Of a stretch of DNA of 42,688 nucleotides, positions 5,328 to 18,722 are shown piece by piece. Location: positions 1-42,688 of the forward strand of contig ONQS01000019.1 of assembly GCA_900320055.1 (NCBI GenBank), given 5' to 3'. Each line of letters opens with the position of its first letter. The first letter of the stretch is position 1. This stretch comes from an uncultured Prevotellaceae bacterium (GTDB taxonomy: Bacteria; Bacteroidota; Bacteroidia; Bacteroidales; Muribaculaceae). The notes under the pieces were generated by a model. It ran no database searches. It had not been told where the DNA came from and saw only the letters and a list, made by a program, of their open reading frames with translations. Both the position numbers and the translations under genes were made by a program.

Positions 5328-7304
5328 TCACTTAATGGCAATCTTATAACTCTTGCCGTCGACCACCACGACATAGAATCCGGGCTCCATTGCATAGCGG
5401 TTGACGCCAGCATCGAGGGAGAGGTCGCGCGTGACGCCATTGATCGAAGCCACCTGGGCAACTCCCGCATCGCGGCAGTCGACACACAGGTATCGGCCCT
5501 CGGTCCAAACGCGGGCGGTATTGGTCATCAGGTCATTCACTCCGCTGGTGGAAGTCACGCGAGCCACGCAGTCGGCCAGATGCCAAGCCACGTTGTCGTT
5601 ATCAGAGAGCACGATGTTGGTGAGCGTGAGGTGGCTCTCGCTCTCGAGGGTGGCTTCGGCACGCACGGTGATGTAGAGCACCACCTCGTCCTCGCCATTG
5701 CCAAACATCTGCTTGCGTGGCGAATAGGTCATCGTGCGTGACGTGGCAGCATCCATTTGGCAGGTCTCGCTCACGTGGTCCTTGACGGCCTCTGCCTTGA
5801 CAAGCGTCAAGCCATTGGGCAAGACGATGTCGCATTGCAGCGCATTGTAGCGCTGAGCCCTGTTCAGTTTCACACCGAGTGTACGCTGCTCGCCCGGCAT
5901 AATGGACAGGTCATCGAGTTGCAACAGGTCATCGGTGTTCACTTCTGCATTCATCATCTTCACACCGAGGATAATGGCAATATCGGCATTGATATCGGCG
6001 ACATTGACCTCACCATCCTCGTTGACATCGGCCCGTCGCATCCAATCGTCATCAGCAGGATGGCCCAGGATGATGCTCACGATAGCGTTGACATCGGCAA
6101 TGTTGACCTCGCCGTCGCCATTGACGTCACCCAAAACCCAACCAGCGTCGTCCAGCATGAAGTTCTTCCACTGGTTGGCGGCCTGGTAGAGTTCCTTGGA
6201 CTCTTCAGGGACCGTGAGAGGAATGCGCGACTGTTTCACACCAGCCCACACGTTGCTGCCCAGCGCGGGCACCTCCACGGCATTGCTGGTAAGTGCCTTC
6301 ATGCCTGTCATGCCAGCCATAGCGCGCGTGCCCAGCCAGGTAAGCGTAGCCGGCAGTTCCACTACCGAGAGTTTGTCGGCATTATACATAACATAATCGC
6401 CCATTGACTCGGTACCGCTGATCGACAAGGTGCCCGTCAGGCCAGTTCCGGCCAGCAGATAGTCGTTGAGAGTCGTCAACTTATCGCTTAGGCGAATGCT
6501 GGCAAGGCTCTTGTCATACAAGAACGCGCCATCGCCCAGACTTGTCACGCTAGCGGGCAAGACCACCTTGGTGACAGGAGTCTCAACCATCACCCAATCT
6601 CCCAATTCGGCCAGATTTTTGTTGCCAGAGAGGTCAAGTGTCTTCAAGCCGGTGCCCGCCAGCGAGCGCTCACCCAGCGAGCGGATCGAGGCACCAAGGC
6701 TTACATTGGTCAGCGACGGGCAATCCATCAGCGCCGCTGCATCCAGCCTGCGCAAATGGCTCGACGACTCGACGGTGAAATCGGTGAGCGCGCTACAGCG
6801 CATAAAGGCACCGCAGCCCACCGTCTCGACCTTGGCAGGAATCGTCACCGCCTTGATCGACTCGCATCCAGCAAAGGCAAAATCGGCGATGCTGTCGAGG
6901 TTCGCCGGCAACGTGATTTCGGTCAACTTATCACACCCTGCAAAAGCGGCCCGACCGATTGTCAGCAAGCCCGAAGGCAACTTGACGCTTGTCAGTCCCA
7001 TGTCGGCCAAGCAGGCCACGGGGAGTTCGTTTGCCGCAAAAATCTGCTGCAGATAATGGCGTTCAGTGGTAGTGCATGACGTTACCTCCACACCGCTCAG
7101 ATCGAGGGAGGTGAGGAGATGCAAGTTGCCGCTAATAAAATATAAATCGCTAGCATTTATCGTACCTGTGACAGTCAGGCTAGTAACATCCAAGTCCTTG
7201 ACATTCTGCGACAGCATGCCCGCTGTGTTTCTCACATCAAGGGCCAGGGCATGTAATGTGATCAGCGATAAAAACGCGATGATAATAATATATTTCCTGC
7301 TCAT
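5328..7304 (-). CDS. Secreted BspA-type LRR protein with dockerin pair and cohesin-like region
   Basis: The protein is 658 residues from the ATG at 7304. A longer start at 7319 exists, but the paralogue downstream aligns with the shorter one. After a signal peptide come repeated LRR_5/BspA units (for example AFAGCDKLTEITLPANLDSIADFAFAG in part, about residues 60-370). Next is a dockerin type I pair with calcium-loop motifs GDVNGDGEVNIADV and ADVNEDGEVNVADI (about 390-448), then a beta-rich region that looks cohesin-like (LSIMPGEQRTLGVKL to about 590). The C-terminus, with MEPGFYVVVVDGKSYKIAIK, resembles a type IX secretion sorting signal. BspA proteins bind host or bacterial surface ligands. 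The ligand here cannot be read from sequence. Confidence 0.85.
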   Translation of the reverse strand: MSRKYIIIIAFLSLITLHALALDVRNTAGMLSQNVKDLDVTSLTVTGTINASDLYFISGNLHLLTSLDLSGVEVTSCTTTERHYLQQIFAANELPVACLADMGLTSVKLPSGLLTIGRAAFAGCDKLTEITLPANLDSIADFAFAGCESIKAVTIPAKVETVGCGAFMRCSALTDFTVESSSHLRRLDAAALMDCPSLTNVSLGASIRSLGERSLAGTGLKTLDLSGNKNLAELGDWVMVETPVTKVVLPASVTSLGDGAFLYDKSLASIRLSDKLTTLNDYLLAGTGLTGTLSISGTESMGDYVMYNADKLSVVELPATLTWLGTRAMAGMTGMKALTSNAVEVPALGSNVWAGVKQSRIPLTVPEESKELYQAANQWKNFMLDDAGWVLGDVNGDGEVNIADVNAIVSIILGHPADDDWMRRADVNEDGEVNVADINADIAIILGVKMMNAEVNTDDLLQLDDLSIMPGEQRTLGVKLNRAQRYNALQCDIVLPNGLTLVKAEAVKDHVSETCQMDAATSRTMTYSPRKQMFGNGEDEVVLYITVRAEATLESESHLTLTNIVLSDNDNVAWHLADCVARVTSTSGVNDLMTNTARVWTEGRYLCVDCRDAGVAQVASINGVTRDLSLDAGVNRYAMEPGFYVVVVDGKSYKIAIK

Positions 7305-7333
7305 AATTCCTATTGTCATATATGTTCGAACTG

Positions 7334-7512: not shown

Positions 7513-9603
7513 TTATCTGATGACTTTGTTCACCGCTGTAGTGCCATCGGTGTAAGTGGTCACCACGATATTGATGCCGTCGAAGGGCGAGTCGCTCTGC
7601 TGACCTGCGACATTGATGTAGCGCACGGTCGCGATCTCACGGCCCTCAACAATCTTCTCGACTCCCGAACCGTCGTTGACACGAGCCATCGCATCACCAG
7701 CCATATAGGTCTCGTGCTGCAGGGTCACCAGTTCAACATTGGCCAGAGCCACCTCGGCGCCATCGGGAGAGAAGTCATCGTCAGCCTCGACAATCAGCCT
7801 CATCACATGGCCCTCGCTGCCAGCATAGGGATCCATCTGCATCGACGCTCCGATGATGGTGTACAGGCAAGGATCATCCTGATGTGCCATAGAATAGTAG
7901 TCATGGGCCGCGCCACGGTCCACACCTTTGACGCCCACAAGCCTCAAGCCCTGCGGCAAAACCAGTTCACACTGCAACGCGGTGTAGATGTGCTCGGTGT
8001 TGTTCAGTGCCACGTCGACATTGATCGTCTCTCCAGCCTTGATTGTGATGGGAGTGAGCGACAATGCGTCGCTGGTGACCACACACTGCTCTGCAACCAG
8101 AGCGCGGATGCGCGAGAGAGACCTGCTGGAGGTGTCGCTCAGCAACATGTCGATCAGGGCCGTCACGTCGCTGATGTTGATCACACCATCGCCATTGATG
8201 TCGGCCGGTTTCAAATAGGAGCCTCCGCTATCAGACAGCAACATGTCGATCAGGCTGGTCACGTCACTGATGTTGACCACGCCATCGCCATTGACGTCAC
8301 CCAACAGGTAGTCATCCTCGGCGTCGAAGAAGAATTCCATCCACTGGTCGGCGGCTTTATACAGAACAGCGCTCTCGTTGTCGGGCACGATCAGCGGAAT
8401 CGAGTGCTGATCTAATCCGGCCCATACCTCCTCGCCCAATTCCGGCACATCGGAGGCAGCAGTCTTGAGCACGGCCATGCCGGTCATACCAGCCATCGCA
8501 CGATCGCCCAGATAAGTCAACGTTGCCGGCAGGACCATGGTGTCGATGGGAGCGCTCACGTTATAGAGGGCATAGGCGCCTACGCGGGCAACCCCCTTCT
8601 TGAGCAGGGTGCTGGCATTGAGCATGCCATCGCCAGCAAACGTGTAATCCTCGATAAGCGCAATGGTGCGTCCCTGGCTGGGGGCCATCGAGCCGCCACG
8701 GCCACCGCCGTGGTTATGTCCCAGCCCTGGCAGGCTGACACTGGTCAGCAGCGGGTTGTGGGACAATGCGCCCTCGCCCAGCACGGTCATACCGTCGGCA
8801 AGTTGGATGGCAGACAATTGAGTCTGAGCCAATGCCCAAGCGCCAATAGTGCCGAGCCTGGACTGGCCTGTCAGATCGATGCTTGACAAGCCCGAGTTGA
8901 TGAAGGCCTCGTCATCGATGCGCGTCAAGCGGCAAGCGGGATCCATATTGATGGCGCTCAATGCCTTGCAGCCGTTAAACACGCCCTTGAAGACGTACTC
9001 AACGTTGCTGCCCAGATTGACCTCGCTAAGCGCGACATCGCCCAGAAACGCGAAATCACCCACATACTTGCTATCGATATCGGCACGCGTGAGCGACTCG
9101 CATCTCGAGAACACGCCCTTGCCCATGTGTGACACAGCCGACGTGAGCGTAACGCTGGTCAATCCCGAACCCGAGAAGGCATAATCGTCGATAAACGTGA
9201 CCGACTCCGGAATCGTCACCGTGGCCAACCGGTCACAGCCGGCAAAAGCGGCATAACCAATCACCTGAACCGTAGCGGGCAGGCTGACCGACGTGATCTT
9301 TTTGCCGAAAAAGGCCGTGCGGGGTATTTCATTTCCACCATAGTGCGTTACTGTGCCATAGAGCGCCAGCCCTTTTTCATAGGGGACTATGGTGACCTGG
9401 CTCAGATCCACAGCCGTAAGTTCCGTCAGCGTCTCGCTGATGAACAAGAAGTCGCTGGCGTCCATCGTGCCCGTCACCGTCAACTGCGTGATGGAGTGAT
9501 CCGGCACCAGGCTCGAGAGCGAGCCTGCCGTGTTCTGGACTGTAATCGCATGGCCTGCTAGCGTACAGGCTACTACTGCAATCAGCATCAATAGGTTGCG
9601 CAT
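7513..9603 (-). CDS. Secreted BspA-type LRR protein with dockerin pair and cohesin-like region (paralogue)
   Basis: This 696-residue protein has the same layout as its neighbour at 5328-7304. A signal peptide (MRNLLMLIAVVACTLAGHA) is followed by LRR_5 units from about 80 to 410 with patterns such as AAFAGCDRLATVTIPESV. A dockerin pair (GDVNGDGVVNISDV and ADINGDGVINISDV, about 432-485) and a cohesin-like beta region (LTPITIKAGETINVDVAL, about 510-640) come next. A C-terminal segment with GINIVVTTYTDGT resembles a T9SS type A sorting domain. Stretches such as RAMAGMTGM are shared with the neighbour, so the two arose by tandem duplication. It has its own promoter and terminator. Confidence 0.85.
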   Translation of the reverse strand: MRNLLMLIAVVACTLAGHAITVQNTAGSLSSLVPDHSITQLTVTGTMDASDFLFISETLTELTAVDLSQVTIVPYEKGLALYGTVTHYGGNEIPRTAFFGKKITSVSLPATVQVIGYAAFAGCDRLATVTIPESVTFIDDYAFSGSGLTSVTLTSAVSHMGKGVFSRCESLTRADIDSKYVGDFAFLGDVALSEVNLGSNVEYVFKGVFNGCKALSAINMDPACRLTRIDDEAFINSGLSSIDLTGQSRLGTIGAWALAQTQLSAIQLADGMTVLGEGALSHNPLLTSVSLPGLGHNHGGGRGGSMAPSQGRTIALIEDYTFAGDGMLNASTLLKKGVARVGAYALYNVSAPIDTMVLPATLTYLGDRAMAGMTGMAVLKTAASDVPELGEEVWAGLDQHSIPLIVPDNESAVLYKAADQWMEFFFDAEDDYLLGDVNGDGVVNISDVTSLIDMLLSDSGGSYLKPADINGDGVINISDVTALIDMLLSDTSSRSLSRIRALVAEQCVVTSDALSLTPITIKAGETINVDVALNNTEHIYTALQCELVLPQGLRLVGVKGVDRGAAHDYYSMAHQDDPCLYTIIGASMQMDPYAGSEGHVMRLIVEADDDFSPDGAEVALANVELVTLQHETYMAGDAMARVNDGSGVEKIVEGREIATVRYINVAGQQSDSPFDGINIVVTTYTDGTTAVNKVIR

Positions 9604-9796: not shown

Positions 9797-9830
9797 TTTG
9801 GCCTTAAGTGGGGAAACGGCACTAAATTTG
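9797..9830 (+). promoter_or_regulatory. Promoter of the VWA/tubulin-like/Hsp70-like operon
   Basis: TTTG at 9797-9800 (-33) and TAAATTTG at 9823-9830 (-7) are 22 bases apart and fit the Bacteroidota promoter. The predicted start is near 9837, leaving about 42 bases to the ATG at 9879. This rules out the longer in-frame TTG start at 9798, which lies in the promoter. Confidence 0.75.
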
Positions 9831-9878
9831 CATAATTTATGGGATACTCCCCCAAACGGGGATTTCATAACATCAACC

Positions 9879-11354
9879 ATGACGAAGAAAAACAGAAATT
9901 TACGACGTTTTCTAACACTATTGCCCATGTGGCTGGTGTGCCTGGCTATGCTGTCAGGGCTGCTGGCCTGCGGAGGCCACGGCGGTCTGGAAAAGGCCGT
10001 GCGCGGAGTGCTTGTGAGTGGCGACACGACACGACAGGCTTATGACTCGTTGTGCTCGATAGTGACCGATAACCCAGACCGCTACAGCGACCTGCTCACG
10101 CCCGAGGGCACCATCGACCATAGTCGCATGGCTGCGCTGATTGATGAGATCGGCTCGGCGCTGCGCCCGCCCATGCATTGGGACACACGCCCCTATGGCG
10201 GGGCTCGCGACCTGTCGCTGACCATCTACTTTGAGCGCAGTGGTTCGATGGTTCCGTATGACTCCCGAGGGGGCGACGGCCGCCTCAAGAAGGCCGTCAA
10301 CGACCTGATCAACCATTTCCCTGCGGGCAGCAAGGTAGACATCAATATCGTGAACGACGGTATCTATCCCTACCAGCACACCGTGGACGAATTCCTCAAG
10401 GACCGTGACATCTACCAGAGCACCGCTGGCATCGGTGACGCAAGTTACACCGATTTCCAATTGATTTTCAACAAGATACTTGAGGCCCAGAAGCCAGGCA
10501 ACGTGAGTGTGCTGGTCAGCGACCTCATCTACTCGCCTGAGGACACCCGCGGTGTGAGTCTGGACAAGATCTTCAACGAGGAGAACAGCCTCGCCACCCG
10601 AGTGTTTGCCCGCTACAAGGGCAAGAGCGTGGTCGTGCAGCAATTTATGGGAGACTATAGCGGCAAGTATTACCCCTATAACAACGTACCCATCGAGTAC
10701 CACGGCAAGCGCCCCTTCTACCTGATGATTATCGCCGATAGTGAGGTAATGAACCAACTGGCTCAGGACAAGCGATATAGCGGTGTGCTGGATGCCGCTG
10801 GCATTCGCAACAGTTTCCGATTTAACCAGGCATCGAGCGACATCCAGTGCCAAGTCTTGCCCGAGTGGAAAGACAATGCAGGCCGCTTCCGTGTGAAGCA
10901 TGGCGACGGCATCGTCCTGACCCGGTGTGAAGGCGACCGCCAGACGGGCAAACTGTGCTTCTCGATGGCCGCCAACCTGAGCAGTCTGATGAAGGATGAC
11001 GCCCTGCTGACCGACGCCGGCAACTATGATGTCAAGAGTGTGGACGGCTACACCCTCACCGTGCAGCCCATCGACCAGAGCATGGTTACCGCCAACAACA
11101 AGGACTACCTCGAGGGGATGACCCACATCTTCACCCTACTAGGGGACTTCAAGAGCCCGCGCGATGAGATACGGATTGCCCTGCGCAACGAGTTGCCCGC
11201 CTGGATCCACCAGTCGTCGAGCCAAAGCGACATCGACACCAGCGGCTCGTTTGCGACCACGACGCTGGGCCTCGAGCAACTGCTGGGCGGCATGTTCGAA
11301 GCCATGCAGGGAAGCCATGCCCTGTTTGAAATCGACATCCAATTGCAGCATTGA
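9879..11354 (+). CDS. Lipoprotein with VWA-like domain
   Basis: The protein is 491 residues from the ATG at 9879. The N-terminus is basic and then hydrophobic, ending in lipobox LLAC (C31), so it is an envelope lipoprotein. From about residue 112 there is a von Willebrand A-like fold: LTIYFERSGSM carries a MIDAS-like ExSxS (E119, S121, S123), T191 lies in ASYTDFQ, and D215 is in LVSDLIYS. The canonical first aspartate is replaced by glutamate, so metal binding may be altered. The C-terminal half (about 280-491) is unrecognised. It is the first gene of a six-gene same-strand cluster with a tubulin-like and an Hsp70-like protein, and is likely its sensor or substrate-binding part on the far side of the membrane. 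Confidence 0.75.
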   Translation: MTKKNRNLRRFLTLLPMWLVCLAMLSGLLACGGHGGLEKAVRGVLVSGDTTRQAYDSLCSIVTDNPDRYSDLLTPEGTIDHSRMAALIDEIGSALRPPMHWDTRPYGGARDLSLTIYFERSGSMVPYDSRGGDGRLKKAVNDLINHFPAGSKVDINIVNDGIYPYQHTVDEFLKDRDIYQSTAGIGDASYTDFQLIFNKILEAQKPGNVSVLVSDLIYSPEDTRGVSLDKIFNEENSLATRVFARYKGKSVVVQQFMGDYSGKYYPYNNVPIEYHGKRPFYLMIIADSEVMNQLAQDKRYSGVLDAAGIRNSFRFNQASSDIQCQVLPEWKDNAGRFRVKHGDGIVLTRCEGDRQTGKLCFSMAANLSSLMKDDALLTDAGNYDVKSVDGYTLTVQPIDQSMVTANNKDYLEGMTHIFTLLGDFKSPRDEIRIALRNELPAWIHQSSSQSDIDTSGSFATTTLGLEQLLGGMFEAMQGSHALFEIDIQLQH

Positions 11355-11404
11355 CCTAGCGAGATTCCATAACCACTCCTACTACTGACGAGAACTGAAC
11401 AATT

Positions 11405-11860
11405 ATGAAACAGATCACATATTTAATTGCTGGCATCGTCGTGACCGTGATATTCTTTATCTTGAGTTGCAGCGACGGTTTCAACATCTATGAGCAAATG
11501 TACTTTAATCAGGGTTACAACGACAAGATGTTCAACTTGGACATGTATCCCGTGATTGCAGCCATCACCATCCTCATCGCATGGGGCGGCGCAGCCATCT
11601 ACTATTATGCCATCAACTCGGTGAAATTTGACCGCTGGTATCACTGGCTGGCAGTGATGGCCGTCGTGATCGTGCTGGCTCCCGTCGCCTGCTATGTGTA
11701 TAACGACACGGTGTTTGCCAACAATGGGCTGGCCTATGTGGGCGAGTCCATCCAATTCGAGATGCAGACGGTGCTGTTTGCAGCCGTACTCTACATTGTG
11801 GCATCCTTCTCGATGCGCTGGTGGAGTAGTAACTGTCGCCACACGCCGCTGCCTCAGTAA
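11405..11860 (+). CDS. Small integral membrane protein, about four helices
   Basis: This 151-residue protein has hydrophobic segments at about 6-24, 49-70, 82-101 and 122-140, and short polar loops (for example YEQMYFNQGYNDKMFNLDMYP). I recognise no family. It lies 50 bases after the VWA-like lipoprotein and 72 bases before the tubulin-like gene on the same strand, with no promoter evident in either gap. It is probably the membrane partner linking the lipoprotein to the cytoplasmic NTPases; that role is inferred from position only. Confidence 0.75.
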   Translation: MKQITYLIAGIVVTVIFFILSCSDGFNIYEQMYFNQGYNDKMFNLDMYPVIAAITILIAWGGAAIYYYAINSVKFDRWYHWLAVMAVVIVLAPVACYVYNDTVFANNGLAYVGESIQFEMQTVLFAAVLYIVASFSMRWWSSNCRHTPLPQ

Positions 11861-11932
11861 GGCCCCAGGCGTTATGGCTCAGGCATCGGGATGCCAACTA
11901 ACAAGTAAAAAATGCAACAAAAAGACTGAAAT

Positions 11933-13456
11933 ATGAGACTATTCCTATTTGCCATCGGTGGCACCGGGTCGAGAGTGCTCAAATCACTGCTGATGCTCTC
12001 GGCGGCAGGCGTGCGCCCGCTCGACGAGAACGGCAAGCCCGTGAAGGACCTGGAGATTGTGCCCGTCATTATCGACCCGCACAAGGCCAACGAGGACCTG
12101 AAGCGCACCGAGGCCCTGCTCAACGATTACCGCGACATCAGGCGCCGGCTCTATGGCAACGACCCCAACGCCGAGGGCTTCTTTGCCAACCGCATCGTGA
12201 CGCTGCGCGAGATCATGAGCAACACCAGCGTGACACTGGGCGACACGTTCATCTTCAATCTAGGAGCGGTGGAAAATGCCAAGTTCCGCGAGTTTATCGG
12301 TTATGACACGATGAATGAGGCCAACCAGGCATTAACCTCACTGCTGTTTGCCAACTACCAGTTGGAGAATAAGATGAACATCGGATTTGTGGGCAGTCCC
12401 AACATCGGCAGTGTGGCACTCAACGAGGTCAAGGACAGCAACGAGGTCAAAGCCTTCAGCAACGTTTTCCGTCAGGGAGACCGCATCTTCTTTATCAGTT
12501 CCATCTTTGGTGGCACCGGTGCTGCAGGATTTCCGATTATGGTCAAGAACATACGTCAAGCAGCCAATCTCGAGGGTATCGAGAACCGCGACGCCCTGAG
12601 CCGCGCCCCTATCGGCGGTCTGACCGTGCTGCCCTATTTCACGCTAGAGGGCAACAAGCACGATCAGCGCATCGCTACCAGCGACTTTATCGTCAAGACG
12701 CAGAGTGCGCTGTACTACTATAAGAACACGCTCACAGGTGCCAACGACAGCAATGTGAACAGCATTTACTATCTGGGCGATCAGGTCAGGAGCAAGCCCT
12801 ACCTGTATGACCCAGGCGAGCACGGTCAGCGCAACAATGCCCACCTGATCGAACTCATCGGAGCCTTGGCACCCCTCGATTTTGCAGGCGTGCCCGATAG
12901 CAAACTCACCGATCAGGATGGCTACCCATTGCCTACCACGGCCTATGAGTATGCCCTGGCCAAGGACGAATTGAGCATCAACTTCCTGTCGCTGGGCCGC
13001 CGCACTCGCCAACTCATCTATGAACCCATGAGCAAGTTCCACCTGCTGTTTTTGTTCCTCACCACGGGATTCAAAAACATCATCGGGCAGGGCTTTACCG
13101 AAGACTCGCCCAAGATCAAGAGCGACTTTCTCGTATCGCAGTTCTACCGCACGCTGGTGGACCAGTTCATGCTGGGGTATGCCCAATGGCTCACCGAGAT
13201 GAACGACAACATGCGCAGCGTAGCGCTGTTCAAGCCCGGCGAGGTCGACATGGCTCATGCCATCGAGGGCGTGGGTGTAAAAAAACGCCTGCTAGGACAC
13301 TACAAGGTCGACAACGACGTGCTCAAGGCCGAGATGAACAAACTGAGCAAGAATAATCCAAAATACAGCGACCACTCGGTTGAATACAAATTGTTGGACT
13401 TGTTTAACCAGGCAGCCCACAACGTGTTTGTGGAACGGTACGAAAACATCAACTAA
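11933..13456 (+). CDS. Tubulin/FtsZ-like GTPase family protein (Tubulin_2-like)
   Basis: This 507-residue protein begins MRLFLFAIGGTGSRVLKSL, a nucleotide-binding start like that of FtsZ/tubulin. At residues 193-199 it has GGTGAAG, within FFISSIFGGTGAAGFPIMV, which matches the tubulin signature GGGTGS/AG. The spacing of about 180 residues between the two motifs is longer than in FtsZ (about 80-100), as expected for divergent tubulin-like families. It is not the cell-division FtsZ. The C-terminal 200 residues are helical and unrecognised. Its neighbours are a VWA-like lipoprotein and an Hsp70/actin-like ATPase, so I infer a cytoskeletal or membrane-remodelling role. Polymerisation is not established. 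Confidence 0.75.
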   Translation: MRLFLFAIGGTGSRVLKSLLMLSAAGVRPLDENGKPVKDLEIVPVIIDPHKANEDLKRTEALLNDYRDIRRRLYGNDPNAEGFFANRIVTLREIMSNTSVTLGDTFIFNLGAVENAKFREFIGYDTMNEANQALTSLLFANYQLENKMNIGFVGSPNIGSVALNEVKDSNEVKAFSNVFRQGDRIFFISSIFGGTGAAGFPIMVKNIRQAANLEGIENRDALSRAPIGGLTVLPYFTLEGNKHDQRIATSDFIVKTQSALYYYKNTLTGANDSNVNSIYYLGDQVRSKPYLYDPGEHGQRNNAHLIELIGALAPLDFAGVPDSKLTDQDGYPLPTTAYEYALAKDELSINFLSLGRRTRQLIYEPMSKFHLLFLFLTTGFKNIIGQGFTEDSPKIKSDFLVSQFYRTLVDQFMLGYAQWLTEMNDNMRSVALFKPGEVDMAHAIEGVGVKKRLLGHYKVDNDVLKAEMNKLSKNNPKYSDHSVEYKLLDLFNQAAHNVFVERYENIN

Positions 13457-13483
13457 GGGTCAAAGCACTACTACTAGAAACAT

Positions 13484-16400
13484 ATGAGCGAGATATTATC
13501 CTATAGCAACAATACGACCAAAAACGGCGAGGAGGACTGGATAGCACATTCCCCCTATACCGACGATGACATCGCACGCATCAAGGATCCTGACGGAGGT
13601 CTGAGCGAAAACCCGCGCACGGCCATCCCCAGCCCGCTGGCCCAACTGGACCTGGTCAAGAACGCATTCAAGCAACTGGCCAACGACCGCCTGAGAGGCG
13701 CCCGCATGAACGAGCGCCTGGTATCCAATGCCCTCGACGTGGCCCAACTGTTCTTTGACTACGAGAACCACAAGGACTACCTGCGCATCATCCGCTGGAA
13801 CCGCGAGGAGTGCATCGATCAGTTGAAGGCCAATCCGCAGCACCGCCTCTATGGCGAGACGCTCGACCTGTTTCTGCGCAGCGACAAGGTTTACAACTTC
13901 GACCTGCTCAAGGACTGGTACATCATCATGTGGGACCGCCAGGTGCTTGGCGGCACATCACCCGCGTCGGTCGTAATGGCAGCGCCCGCTCTGGGCACCA
14001 TCGACGCCATCAAGGTGGAGCAAGGCGTCAGCCTGTTTGGCGAAACCCGCCACTTGTGGCAGCGCGACGAGGATTTTGTCTGCTACATGTACCTGCTGAT
14101 GAACGCCTACCCCACCCTGCGCCTGCACTGCGGTGAAGTGTATGCCTACATGCAGAAAAATCTCGAGCCCTTGCGCGCCAATCGTCCCGATCTGTACCGC
14201 CGCATCACCACCATTATCCCCAATCTGGATGCTCTGGACGAGGGCCGAGCCAGCACGGTGCTGGAGCAACTGGAGCACACCTACGACCCCTTTGGCGGAG
14301 GCATCGACGTGAGTGTGCTGGGTGCCCGTTTCTATCACAAGCGCGTGCGTGACATCCGCACATCGGCCAGCGAGAGCGACTTTGTCATCTCTCCCAGCCT
14401 GCCGCAACACGAGGGCGAACTGCCATTGGTGCTGGTGAGCGGCTTTAACGGCAGTGTGGAGCACTTCAGATACATCGACAAGGAATGGGACAGCGCAACC
14501 CAGGTGTTTGCCGGCAAGGTCCCGCTGAGCGACCGCAAACTGCCAGACACTTCCATCCAGTATCCATTTGTCACCACCGACGATTTCCTGACCGACACGC
14601 TGGTGAGGCTTGACAGTGGCTGCGTGATCGATACCGACCACTTCTTTGACGGCAATCTTAAGCCCCGCACGCCACAGCCCACTTGCGGCTACCTGCTGCC
14701 CCTGAAGCCCCTGCTGTTCACCTATTTCGACACAGAGTATCTCAAGGGGACCATTGCCGGCCGCCATGTGATGGACATTGAGGAATTTGCCGACGGCAGC
14801 GTGATGGTGACCCTGCGCATCCGCGTCCAGAAGGGAGAAAACCGTTACATCGAGTTGTCCCGCAAATATTTCCCCATCAACGACCACACCTGGACATTTG
14901 ACGAGCGCCGCGGTACGGGCCGCGTGCTGAACGCCACATTGTCCACATCGGTCTTCCCGTTTGTCAAGACCGACATCAACGACGACTACACCGTGGAACT
15001 GTTCACTATGATCGAGAATGGCGGTGCCACACTGCGTTTCTTCAAAAACGGCATCAGCACAGATCGGCTCAACGTCAGAGACGCGATGCGTTCCCAGTCG
15101 GGCTACAGCACCACCTATTATGACGTGGATGGCTCTTGGGACTATATGGAGGTCAACATCCAGAACCATCTGGGACGCTCCAGCGGCGTAATCATCCCCC
15201 ACTGGAAACCTTATGTCCCCAGCGCCAAGGAACTGATCTTTGCCGTGGACTTTGGCACGACCAACACCCATGTGGAGTGGGCCGAGCGCGGCCAGCCATC
15301 GCAACCGTTCACCTTTGAATATGGCTCTGGACAAGTGCTGGTGGCCTCATTGCACAAGCCCCGATCGCTGGAATATGCCGAACAGGTGCAACGCGTCGAG
15401 TTTGTGCCGCGCGAGATAGACAATGTGTATGGATTCCCGCTCCGCTCCACCCTGGCGCGCAACGAGAATAGCGGCGTGGGGTGCAACCTGTTCAGCGACG
15501 TGAATATCCCGTTCCTGTATGAGAGACGCTACTTCCATGGCTATGACGTGATGACCAACCTCAAGTGGAAGGGAGACACCGAGATGGCCAAGGCCTTTCT
15601 GCGCGAACTCACCCTGCTCATCAAGGCCAAAGCCCTGCTCGAGCATGCCGACCTGCGTCACGTCGAGGTGGTCTACTTCTACCCCGTGAGCATGGGCGGT
15701 GCCAACCGCGATATGCTGGAGCGTGCATGGAGCGAACTGTTCAACACCTACATCGGCGGTGACAGTGACCATCTGCGCTCCTATCCCGAGAGTCTGGCTC
15801 CCGCCTACTACTACAGCGGAGCCGAGGTGGCCGGCAGCAGTTACGTGTCGATCGACATCGGCGGCGGCACTTGTGATACTGTCATCTACCAGCCCACCAG
15901 CGACCGCATGAGCAGCGAGCCCGTGGCCATATCCTCGTTCCGCTTTGCCGGCAACGCCATCTTTGGTGACGGCTTCACCGACAAGGACGCCGACAACAAC
16001 CCGCTGCTGCAGCACTACACCCGCTACTTCAAGCAACTCATCGAGAACGACAAGGGTAATGGTATCGCCTATCTGGGCAGCATTCTGGACGACATCATGG
16101 CCCAGAAACGCAGCGAGGACATCAATGCCTTCCTCTTCTCGATCGAGAATGTGGAGGAACTGCGCACGCTGCGCGAGATTGACCGCAACCTGTACAGTTA
16201 CAACGCGCTCTTGCGCAACGACAGCCAGCGGCGTCTCATCTTTATGTACTTCTACTCTGCCATCATCTACTATATCGCCCAGGCGATGAAGCAGCGTGAC
16301 TATGAGATGCCCAAGCAAATCTACTTCTCGGGCACAGGCAGCAAGATATTAAACATCTTGGGATCCCAGAGCCGCATCACCATGCTCTCGCAGATGATTA

Positions 16401-16927
16401 TCGAGCAAGTGTATGGCAAGCACTACAACGAGACCTTCGAGATCAAGCAGGAAATCAAGTGCCCCAAGCAGATCACCTGCCGCGGCGGCATCCGTCTCGA
16501 AAACCGTCGTCTCGAAGGCCAGGCCGACGTGGCCCACTACAACGCCACCAGTGTCAAGCGCATGCGCTACTGTTGCTCTATGCTGGGTCAGGACGACCTG
16601 ACCATGTCCCAGATCGAGTCTATCGAAGTGCGCGAGCGCCTAGTGGAGAAGGTGCAGGAGTTCAACCGCTTCTTCATCAACCTGTGCGACGCGACCGTCA
16701 AGGACGAATTCGGCATCGAGAACAACATACTAGCCCTGTTCGAGAGCGTGCTGGGCGACAATCTGGCCAACTATCTGACCGCTGGCATCAACGCCTTCCT
16801 GAAGGGCCGTTACAACGCCACCGATGTGATCGAGGACGTACCATTCTTCTATCCCATCATCGGCGTGATCCGCCACAATCTGCTCAAGAACATGCGCAAC
16901 GACGTCATCAGCAAGTTTAACCAATAA
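13484..16927 (+). CDS. Giant Hsp70/actin-like ATPase protein (possibly SrfB-related)
   Basis: This 1147-residue protein has two halves. Residues 1 to about 580 are an unrecognised region with helical start and later beta-rich stretches. From about 585 there is an actin/Hsp70/sugar-kinase ATPase fold with all three signature loops: phosphate 1 FAVDFGTTNTH (D589), phosphate 2 SIDIGGGTCDTVIY (D791) and adenosine motif IYFSGTGSKIL (G950-S953). The size and arrangement recall SrfB-type proteins, but I cannot confirm that family. The conserved loops suggest that it binds and hydrolyses ATP. It lies 27 bases after the tubulin-like gene and 22 before the adaptor gene, so the three are very likely co-expressed and may form one complex. 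Confidence 0.8.
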   Translation: MSEILSYSNNTTKNGEEDWIAHSPYTDDDIARIKDPDGGLSENPRTAIPSPLAQLDLVKNAFKQLANDRLRGARMNERLVSNALDVAQLFFDYENHKDYLRIIRWNREECIDQLKANPQHRLYGETLDLFLRSDKVYNFDLLKDWYIIMWDRQVLGGTSPASVVMAAPALGTIDAIKVEQGVSLFGETRHLWQRDEDFVCYMYLLMNAYPTLRLHCGEVYAYMQKNLEPLRANRPDLYRRITTIIPNLDALDEGRASTVLEQLEHTYDPFGGGIDVSVLGARFYHKRVRDIRTSASESDFVISPSLPQHEGELPLVLVSGFNGSVEHFRYIDKEWDSATQVFAGKVPLSDRKLPDTSIQYPFVTTDDFLTDTLVRLDSGCVIDTDHFFDGNLKPRTPQPTCGYLLPLKPLLFTYFDTEYLKGTIAGRHVMDIEEFADGSVMVTLRIRVQKGENRYIELSRKYFPINDHTWTFDERRGTGRVLNATLSTSVFPFVKTDINDDYTVELFTMIENGGATLRFFKNGISTDRLNVRDAMRSQSGYSTTYYDVDGSWDYMEVNIQNHLGRSSGVIIPHWKPYVPSAKELIFAVDFGTTNTHVEWAERGQPSQPFTFEYGSGQVLVASLHKPRSLEYAEQVQRVEFVPREIDNVYGFPLRSTLARNENSGVGCNLFSDVNIPFLYERRYFHGYDVMTNLKWKGDTEMAKAFLRELTLLIKAKALLEHADLRHVEVVYFYPVSMGGANRDMLERAWSELFNTYIGGDSDHLRSYPESLAPAYYYSGAEVAGSSYVSIDIGGGTCDTVIYQPTSDRMSSEPVAISSFRFAGNAIFGDGFTDKDADNNPLLQHYTRYFKQLIENDKGNGIAYLGSILDDIMAQKRSEDINAFLFSIENVEELRTLREIDRNLYSYNALLRNDSQRRLIFMYFYSAIIYYIAQAMKQRDYEMPKQIYFSGTGSKILNILGSQSRITMLSQMIIEQVYGKHYNETFEIKQEIKCPKQITCRGGIRLENRRLEGQADVAHYNATSVKRMRYCCSMLGQDDLTMSQIESIEVRERLVEKVQEFNRFFINLCDATVKDEFGIENNILALFESVLGDNLANYLTAGINAFLKGRYNATDVIEDVPFFYPIIGVIRHNLLKNMRNDVISKFNQ

Positions 16928-16949
16928 AGATATTCTCTAATTAGAAATT

Positions 16950-18113
16950 ATGACACGTCTAACTTTACTCATGGCAGCCATCATCTGCCTCGCCACCTCG
17001 GCACTGGCGCAGATTTCCGAGAATCAGACCCTGTCCACATCATTATGGAAGCAGGGCATTGCCCGTTGTGCCCACTACACGGCTTACGCCAAGGGATTTG
17101 CCAAGCGCTCAGACGAGATGCTCAGACGATTCCCTCAGGGCTATACGCTTGACGACCTGAACGAGGTCTATGACAACCAAGGTGCTAAGTGGGAAAAAAT
17201 CTACGACGAGTTCAAGCAGGAAGAGGGCAAATCAGGCAGCATCGCCGACCTCAAGGAACTGGTAACGCCTCAGATCTGGAAACTCGTTGAACCCGACTTC
17301 AACGCCTTTATCACCGACCATCCCGACATGGCACAGGAAGCCCCTGCTCCCGAGGCCACCGATGGTGAGGCTCAAGAGGGCGAACAAGGCGATAAGGCCC
17401 AGGCTAACGAGGGCGAAGCCAACGCAGCCAAGCCTGCAAGCAGCCTGCCCAGCCTTCCCGCTTGCCCTGCCAATCTGCCTCTGTGGCTGAGCATCATCGG
17501 CCTGCTGTTGGGCCTGTGGGCTCTGCTCAACTCTCTGAGCAACCGTGGCAAGATCAAGGAAATGCGCCGCAATTTTGCCCGTGAAATTGACCGCACCAAC
17601 GCCAACCTGCAGGAGTTCTCGACCGATGCCGCCGACCAGATGCGCGCATTGTCCATCAGGCTGACCGGCAAGGCCGTACGTATGCAGGAGCCTGTTGCCG
17701 ACGACTTAGCGGCCATCAATGATGACGTGCAAGTCGCTGACGAGGAAACAGCGGCCACCGACGGTGATGTTGCCCCTATCGCTGCCGATGATGAGGTGCT
17801 CAACCTCTTCATGAGCAAGCCCGATGACAACGACGACTTCACCCGCGTGAGTGACACGTTTGAGCCCGGCAATTCCATCTTTGTGCTCACCACCCTCGAT
17901 GGACAGCACGGCACCTTTGAGGTCATCGACAAGCCCGAAGTGCACCAGTTTGCCTTGATGATGCCTGCCGAGAACCTGATGCGCGCCTGCTCCGGCAACG
18001 CCATCCAGATTCCCAGCGGTAACCGCATCGTGACCGACCGCGCCGGTGAGGCCGAGTATGTCGACGGCCGCTGGCACGTTGTCGTAAAGGCCATCATCCA
18101 CTACGAGGGCTAA
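16950..18113 (+). CDS. Membrane-anchored adaptor protein with signal peptide and central helix
   Basis: This 387-residue protein starts with a signal peptide (cleavage after ALA, about residue 20). An alpha-helical region to about 125 is followed by an acidic Ala/Glu/Pro linker and one strong membrane helix at about 175-196 (LWLSIIGLLLGLWALLNSL). Beyond it lie a basic stretch with MRRNFAREIDRTNANLQEF and a second domain at about 290-387. The layout implies an outside domain, one membrane crossing and a cytoplasmic domain, and so a link between envelope and cytoplasmic partners. I recognise no family. It follows the Hsp70-like gene by 22 bases and belongs to the same cluster. Confidence 0.75.
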   Translation: MTRLTLLMAAIICLATSALAQISENQTLSTSLWKQGIARCAHYTAYAKGFAKRSDEMLRRFPQGYTLDDLNEVYDNQGAKWEKIYDEFKQEEGKSGSIADLKELVTPQIWKLVEPDFNAFITDHPDMAQEAPAPEATDGEAQEGEQGDKAQANEGEANAAKPASSLPSLPACPANLPLWLSIIGLLLGLWALLNSLSNRGKIKEMRRNFAREIDRTNANLQEFSTDAADQMRALSIRLTGKAVRMQEPVADDLAAINDDVQVADEETAATDGDVAPIAADDEVLNLFMSKPDDNDDFTRVSDTFEPGNSIFVLTTLDGQHGTFEVIDKPEVHQFALMMPAENLMRACSGNAIQIPSGNRIVTDRAGEAEYVDGRWHVVVKAIIHYEG

Positions 18114-18129
18114 TCACACCACCATCAAC

Positions 18130-18214
18130 AGTTAATAGAGAATAGTTGCAAGGTCTGTTGGCCACTGCCACTTATCAGATGCTGCGACTGGCGCCCAACT
18201 ATTCTCTATTAACT
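18130..18214. repeat. 19-bp perfect inverted repeat inside the operon
   Basis: The arms at 18130-18148 (AGTTAATAGAGAATAGTTG) and 18196-18214 are perfect reverse complements separated by 47 bases. No T-run follows, so it is not a normal terminator. The right arm has a 7-base periodicity (AACTATT, CTCTATT, AACTTTA) reminiscent of the heptamer arrays elsewhere in the window. It ends 13 bases before the zinc-ribbon gene and could act in processing or attenuation, or be a remnant of a small mobile repeat. Confidence 0.75.
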
Positions 18215-18227
18215 TTATCACCGAATT

Positions 18228-18722
18228 ATGCGCTGGACTTGTCCCAAATGCGGTAAGAAACTCGACGTCAGCAATGAGCAACTCATCGCTGGCGACGGCG
18301 TGATTGTGTGCCCGCAGTGCCTGCTGCAGGCACATCAGCCCATCCCCACAACGCGTGTCACCGCACGGGCCGACAAGACCGCCACCACCTCATCCGCCCC
18401 CAAGCGCACACCGCAACGGAGCATCAACTTTGACAGTGAGACTCCGCCAGAGTACCACCCCAGCACTCCTCCCGTCCATAAGAATCGCATGAAGCAGGCT
18501 TCCGCATCATATCATTATACCGGGCTCACCGGCAAGGGAGCCACCACGGCCCAAAACCAACCTAATGGCAAGAAAAAATCCAGCAGCAAGCGGAGGAAAA
18601 AGAAGAAAGCCAATGCCGATGGCATGAGTGCCCTGGGATGCCTGGGGCGCACGATTGTTTTCACGCTGGTGCTGTTTGCCGCCTATATCTTCTTCGGCCT
18701 CCTGCTCGAAGCCATGCAGTAA
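18228..18722 (+). CDS. Tail-anchored zinc-ribbon protein
   Basis: This 164-residue protein has an N-terminal zinc ribbon (CPKCGKK at residues 5-11 and CPQC near 28, four cysteines). A long Ser/Thr/Pro-rich disordered linker and a very basic run (KKKSSSKRRKKKKA, about 117-130) follow. A C-terminal membrane helix (TIVFTLVLFAAYIFFGLLLEA) ends almost at the last residue. The layout fits a membrane-tethered cytoplasmic adaptor, with the basic run at the inner leaflet. I infer it is the last gene of the cluster, although the inverted repeat before it could separate its expression. No specific function can be assigned. Confidence 0.75.
   Translation: MRWTCPKCGKKLDVSNEQLIAGDGVIVCPQCLLQAHQPIPTTRVTARADKTATTSSAPKRTPQRSINFDSETPPEYHPSTPPVHKNRMKQASASYHYTGLTGKGATTAQNQPNGKKKSSSKRRKKKKANADGMSALGCLGRTIVFTLVLFAAYIFFGLLLEAMQ

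Follow-up and report, generated by a model that had tools for sequence, protein, structure and literature searches.

What would bring a tubulin-like and an Hsp70/actin-like protein together with a lipoprotein and several membrane proteins in one bacterial operon? This question is raised by a stretch of 42,688 nt from a rumen bacterium (contig ONQS01000019.1; the whole stretch is called the window below), where six same-strand genes, here named A to F, are all open at the positions claimed by a first-pass annotation of the sequence (9879-18722, Table 1). The interpretation given in that annotation is supported in part. The operon appears to belong to a little-studied group of envelope-spanning machines and to represent one of its branches. 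The core shown to be conserved has five genes, which encode a lipoprotein of VWA-like type (A), a small protein of the membrane (B), members of the tubulin (C) and actin/Hsp70 (D) superfamilies and a membrane protein with a single span (E). In our judgement the chances are evenly balanced that the operon encodes a trans-envelope nucleoside triphosphatase (NTPase) machine from a family of modular make-up, which would probably serve in stress or conflict. The most telling parts are located outside the window, in related operons, which have a pair resembling ZorA/ZorB and predicted enzymes of the envelope that are interchangeable.

Proteins and gene order of the core

The grouping of the genes is beyond chance, as the core order recurs among the 80 relatives that were kept for synteny counts from the 129 found by a scan of named genomes for C. 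Genes A and B precede C, in this order, in 73 of the 75 loci with room upstream, D lies within 700 bases after C in 69/73 loci with room and is followed by E in 62/69 (tblastn), so that the expected conservation of the neighborhood was confirmed. Among the exceptions there are L053 and L075 (D farther away), L066 and L074 (no D seen), with gene A not found in L074 and L075. Seven loci lack E according to tblastn (L062 and six Prevotella-type loci); blastp clustering recovers a short E-like open reading frame (ORF) in L080, L081, L082, L084 and L088, and none for L062 or L089. The C proteins of the 80 loci are 48-96% identical to that of the window, while in the nearest 36 loci (L010-L045) the identity is 89-96% for C, 89-95% for D and 61-78% for E. 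The lower conservation of E and F as compared to C and D would fit six unrelated genes that are neighbors by chance and share local expression, but such an explanation is extremely improbable, since the core order recurs in other families, classes and cyanobacterial plasmids, and for A-B-C-D it is refuted by the synteny.

Standard collections give little guidance, as Pfam, NCBIfam, PADLOC and PHROGs contain no match to the six proteins that is above the curated cut-off or otherwise convincing. In protein C (507 residues), the GGTGAAG sequence at residues 193-199, for which a tubulin/FtsZ-like nature had been claimed, is present, and the glycine loops are GGTGSR (9-14) and FGGTGA (192-197). Among 32 diverse members, the signatures have a variant form (GG[TS]G.R for the N-terminal glycine loop, or T1, and FGGTG[AS], with Phe in place of the first Gly of the classical GGGTG[ST]G, or T4, motif), their core residues being invariant and the nucleotide-site residues largely so. 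Pfam Tubulin matches 28 of the 32 members (E<=0.01, best 3.1e-9), which bears out the claim, and Tubulin_2 matches 23, while the window protein taken alone gives E 0.022 with Pfam Tubulin, under the cut-off. In comparisons with the PDB, narrow profiles (A1, A2, A3) yielded zero significant matches and wider ones (A6, A7) were needed; the best match of the C profile A7 is 3zid (Tubulin/FtsZ GTPase, E 0.006). At the level of profiles and motifs, C thus appears to belong to the tubulin superfamily. FtsZ proper was rejected as its identity, the matches of the window member being weak only.

In protein D, all three loops of the Hsp70/actin claim were verified, these being DFGTTN (589-594), DIGGGTCD (791-798) and SGTGS (949-953). 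The phosphate 1, phosphate 2 and adenosine motifs are represented by D589, G591, N594, D791, G793, G794, D798 and G950, none of which varies among 32 members. The profile A6, built from these members, matches structures of MreB (4.8e-6) and Hsp70 (7e-5), and every one of the 60 PDB matches listed of 134 is MreB, actin or Hsp70, while the narrower D profile A2 finds nothing. Hence D, too, is assigned by profile and motifs, and probably belongs to the actin/Hsp70 superfamily. The ATPase motifs start at approximately residue 585, preceded by about 580 N-terminal residues without an assigned family. A standard Hsp70 or SrfB was rejected, as window D has no Pfam match to PF00012 or PF07520; a PF00012 search of its own genome is silent at D, and among the D members SrfB matches 1/32 (at 0.011) and PF00012 0/32. 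In some loci, further D-like proteins were observed upstream of the core (L143:43-3234, D profile 1e-68; L139:1-3384, 1e-10; L142:935-4420, 2e-11).

The presence of C in the tubulin/FtsZ and of D in the actin/MreB/Hsp70 superfamily would also suit a cytoskeletal or segregation system, in which C and D filaments would serve shape, division or DNA partition, anchored to the membrane by A, B and E, and copies of the core on plasmids are in line with it. However, the genes conserved next to C and D code for lipoproteins and membrane proteins, the part of D with the ATPase motifs covers about half of its length, and passages of PMC2875224 argue that FtsZ-like families are unlikely to divide cells, because they coexist with true FtsZ. 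We consider such a system improbable.

Gene A had been described as coding for a lipoprotein with a VWA-like fold. A lipoprotein bearing a motif like the metal ion-dependent adhesion site (MIDAS) is supported by 35 aligned relatives, in which the lipobox Cys is invariant and the pattern ERSGSM...TDF...D is kept, the MIDAS Thr and the third Asp being invariant in these nearer members. In a wider set of 33 members, S122 and D216 alone are invariant and [DE]xSxS is found in most, with ExSxS in the window protein and DxSxS in several distant ones. When aligned by hhalign with 45 VWA stretches, gene A gives E 6e-4 (probability 28%) with three motifs aligned in order, as compared to 0.06 to 0.6 for six controls and 0.24 for the narrow profile A3. 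Pfam VWA_2 matches 1/33 members, and the wide profile A8 has no VWA match in the PDB.

Protein B (151 residues) had been described as a four-helix membrane protein; a simple hydropathy scan supports the membrane location, but not the number, as three helices are clear and a fourth is possible. Protein E has a signal sequence and, later, a single membrane helix by hydropathy, which suggests an adaptor with the N-terminal segment outside and the C-terminal half in the cytoplasm. Its blastp cluster has members in 66 loci. Protein F matches Pfam Zn_ribbon_4 (E 1e-4, under its cut-off) and has a tail anchor by hydropathy; two zinc-ribbon clusters cover 31 and 10 loci.

Motor-like pair and predicted envelope enzymes in related operons

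Thirty-seven loci (17 + 20) come from outside the genus and are called distant below; eight of them have a member of the E cluster. Profiles were built from matches among these loci in six frames. In 12 of the 37, the operon is continued by ZorA-like and ZorB-like genes (a MotA/MotB pair), and in three more there is a ZorA-like gene alone, with the ZorB gene just past the edge of the fetched locus in L113, and short ORFs in L136 and L137. As an independent check, PADLOC ZorB models match all four ZorB-like proteins tested (7.7e-11 to 1e-16), while PADLOC ZorA is better than 1e-4 in two of five ZorA-like proteins (L106, 1.5e-11; L119, 2.6e-5), being weak in L103 (0.027) and without a match in L107 and L112. 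The membrane Asp of ZorB is kept in 11/12 proteins, the twelfth (L111) being a fragment.

Strong ZorB matches (E<1e-50) were found in five genomes of the 395-genome phylum sample, all five holding C; of these G363 alone is independent, because the other four supplied rows of the profile, and 13 weaker matches of the ZorB family fall in genomes without C. Pairwise distances of the motor and core proteins correlate, with r 0.84 for ZorA (11 loci) and r 0.80 for ZorB (9 loci), and none of 5000 permutations reached these values in either case (L113, L134 and L141 were dropped as near-duplicates, and L111 has no D). A deep fork divides the core tree, with motor loci in both of its branches and none in the clade of the window, a pattern that fits an old motor with several losses, although the tree cannot separate gain from loss, its branches are long and two trees differ in the placement of L131. 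There is no ZorA or ZorB match in the window, and its operon is a motor-less branch.

Other genes near the distant cores code for predicted envelope enzymes. Trypsin-like proteins are found downstream of the core in 8/37 loci (Pfam 1.3e-23 for L103), with lipoprotein signals seen by eye in L103, L107, L135 and L139; in L108 such a signal is absent and the gene is located some 5 kb past D; in L132 and L134 the starts are unsure. Retropepsin-like proteins occur in 3/37 distant loci (L105, L110, L111; ApRick protease 4.5e-6 for L105) and in 5/80 nearer ones (L020, L080, L081, L082, L088), with lipoprotein signals in the six proteins that were read (all but L020 and L082); in L020 the gene sits between E and F. 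Thermonuclease-like lipoproteins are present in L107, where the gene is co-directional, and in L112 (2.5e-16).

TerD genes accompany the distant C-D loci L116, L147, L148 and L150, while no TerD match was obtained at the window or for the ORFs tested next to L117 and L145, which are related loci. The set of three P-loop GTPase motifs was found in two of 420 ORFs (>=120 aa) of the 37 distant loci, both of them D proteins; this was a motif search only, confined to the distant loci. A MinD/ParA-like ORF, recognized by eye from KGGVGR near its start, was observed after the operon at L108:10487-12199.

Distribution, mobility and probable role

Gene C is present in 80/81 genomes of the genus and in 39/39 good ones, the genome of the window included. 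Outside this group it is patchy, being found in 35/149 genomes of the family sample (25 being from other genera, some with weak scores) and in 12/395 genomes of the phylum sample, own genome included; D was found by single-sequence search in 6/198 genomes of the order. The core is also found in further classes of the phylum and on Picosynechococcus plasmids, and hence it is not a Bacteroidales speciality, contrary to what had been proposed. The match positions in G619 and G630 are identical to those in L059 and L065, so the genus of the window probably includes Candidatus Sodaliphilus.

Several loci are on or beside mobile DNA. Two loci from different genera, L132 of the motor type and L145 of the distant type, have adjoining integrases 96% identical to each other and seven flanking genes in common (integrase counted) at 80-98% identity. 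Relaxases are located near L140 and L147. On the Picosynechococcus plasmids, genes A, C and D keep their order, with an unmatched ORF replacing B. Three loci come from viral contigs, one with A-E (L203) and two with A-D and the motor pair (L204, L205). On the prophage-like contig of L203 (815-8113), one flanking gene matches 19 phage records and another none; a gene matching Flavobacterium phages was observed near A-E of this locus. No relatives of C were found in the phage collection, and D of L116 had no match on plasmids.

Given this mobility, the patchiness and the swapped enzymes, we infer a role in conflict or stress, and the machine could work as follows. Judging by topology, A would face the periplasm and B and E would span the inner membrane, with C and D in the cytoplasm as an NTP-dependent assembly that docks on E and B. 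Protein A may bind a ligand in a metal-dependent manner or sense damage, and B and E would relay the signal to C and D, whose NTP state would change. The relatives suggest that the core can pair with an ion-driven motor resembling ZorA/ZorB and with envelope-placed hydrolases (trypsin-like, retropepsin-like, thermonuclease), so that the assembled complex would activate an envelope module, which would be a motor, protease or nuclease where present. In the lineage of the window, without the motor, the zinc-ribbon membrane protein F at the operon end would take this place. The response might be directed at attacks on the envelope or at envelope stress, with phages and mobile DNA among the causes, and the system may have spread as accessory cargo and then been fixed in this genus.

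Several observations weigh against such a device. Its near-universal presence in the genus makes C look more like a core function than a defense gene, and this fixation, together with the absence of a clear defense island, speaks against a conflict or stress role. The flanks were searched with PADLOC using 88 of 122 selected ORFs (140 eligible); 56 families matched at E<=1e-10, several of them seemingly generic (kinase, regulator), and none of the 25 listed is found in more than two of the 88 ORFs, so the defense-island argument was dropped. PADLOC also finds nothing in the six window proteins. As for the parts, the VWA assignment of A by profile is weak, the thermonuclease gene of L112 is on the opposite strand, and matches of the motor pair to Pfam MotB_plug, OmpA and MotA_ExbB are all under the curated cut-offs. 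Co-inheritance cannot separate gain of the motor from its loss, and the ZorB profile, which finds matches elsewhere, is silent in the window genome (93% complete).

A housekeeping role comes close behind the conflict or stress role. As envelope maintenance, the NTPase pair would organize lipoproteins, peptidoglycan or outer-membrane proteins (remodeling or quality control), and the proteases would be quality-control enzymes and not weapons. This is a serious possibility, of somewhat less than even probability, and agrees with the fixation in the genus, with C being more conserved than E and F among near relatives, with proteases and peptidoglycan-type motors, which suit envelope upkeep too, and with the membrane remodeling predicted in passages of PMC2875224. 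The patchy occurrence elsewhere, the mobile carriage and the nuclease within one co-directional run are against it.

Four kinds of known system come closest to this operon. Makarova and Koonin 2010 (PMC2875224) describe FtsZ-like proteins whose partners are VWA, GTPase and OmpA proteins, and predicted membrane remodeling as their role, with Bacteroides caccae in an alignment legend; the FtsZl1 type is marked by an FtsZ-like domain at the N-terminus, a long coiled coil and a C-terminal domain of helices; a passage of PMC9871819 links Pfam Tubulin_2 to proteins of such systems. The likeness proposed in the first-pass annotation holds, as here, too, a divergent tubulin-superfamily protein is found beside a VWA-like protein and membrane proteins, with a patchy distribution and OmpA-family partners in some loci. 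Unlike in the FtsZl1/VWA systems as described there, the OmpA-type protein is a ZorB-like partner of a MotA-like protein, C has 507 residues, half the length of the type protein (1051), and there is a giant actin/Hsp70-like partner, while Hsp70 and DnaK have no occurrence in the main text of PMC2875224. Unlike both these and the DO-GTPase systems, the neighbors in distant loci lack the P-loop GTPase motif set, according to the motif search.

The GTPase-centric conflict systems of Kaur et al. 2020 (PMC7159879) have tubulin or HSP70 themes; its overview passage places GTPases, tubulin and HSP70 in one class, while the detailed section treats the tubulin and HSP70 themes as non-overlapping, the former restricted to firmicutes and actinobacteria. 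Tubulin, HSP70-family and VWA or VWA-like proteins are shared, as are parts in the membrane and a changing set of effectors with trypsin among them, while here, unlike in these themes, C and D are neighbors in 69/73 loci. As in Zorya (PMC11890865), relatives of the window operon carry ZorA-like and ZorB-like proteins, but the window has no such match and the partners are tubulin- and actin-like proteins. Ter-type clusters (TerD, PF02342) are resembled by the four distant loci with TerD, unlike the window and the tested neighbors of L117 and L145.

No prior paper linking the A-E core to a ZorAB-like motor was found in searches of an open-licence library. Tentatively, and with more doubt than for the trans-envelope machine itself, one may propose an undescribed trans-envelope class that combines a tubulin-superfamily GTPase, an actin/Hsp70-superfamily ATPase, an ancestral ZorAB-type rotary motor and a VWA lipoprotein and switches interchangeable envelope proteases and nucleases, being mobile immunity or stress cargo that was fixed in the rumen genus after motor loss. 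If this is true, one machine combines tubulin and actin folds, plus a rotary motor in relatives; the FtsZ-like/VWA operons of 2010 would gain a testable shape, with an outside sensor, two inside nucleotide switches and exchangeable envelope enzymes; and the window would hold a motor-less natural variant, useful for asking what the motor contributes.

Features of the window operon and its surroundings

Table 1. Coordinates of operon features in the window
Feature	Position	Strand	Remarks
Candidate promoter	9797..9830	+	TTTG 9797-9800, TAAATTTG 9823-9830
Gene A, lipoprotein with VWA/MIDAS-like domain	9879..11354	+	
Gene B, small membrane protein	11405..11860	+	Hydropathy, synteny; distant members known
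Gene C, 507-aa tubulin/FtsZ-superfamily protein (predicted)	11933..13456	+	
Gene D, 1147-aa protein with actin/Hsp70-like ATPase motifs	13484..16927	+	
Gene E, signal sequence and one membrane helix, putative adaptor	16950..18113	+	
Inverted repeat in the E-F gap, with 16-base arms	18133..18211	.	
Gene F, N-terminal zinc ribbon and C-terminal membrane anchor	18228..18722	+	

The gaps from A-B through D-E are 22-72 bases, while the one between E and F is 114. The longest frame of the first gene begins with TTG at 9798, but its start is likely the ATG at 9879, which is followed by the signal sequence. For the single promoter claimed in the first-pass annotation there is a candidate, whose two elements fit the Bacteroides promoter consensus in a comparison made without statistics. 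The 3' side of the operon has a DUF4491 gene and, presumably, trmD, named from its sequence.

The repeat between E and F is perfect (arms 18133-18148 and 18196-18211), with two exact matches in the window versus 0.00 expected, and a 13-base part of it occurs once each in six other loci. Upstream of the operon, the opposite strand encodes two leucine-rich-repeat-like proteins of the BspA type (7513-9603 and 5328-7319, minus strand); the one at 7513-9603, the sole one of the pair scanned, matches LRR_5 (7e-40) and Dockerin (5e-11).

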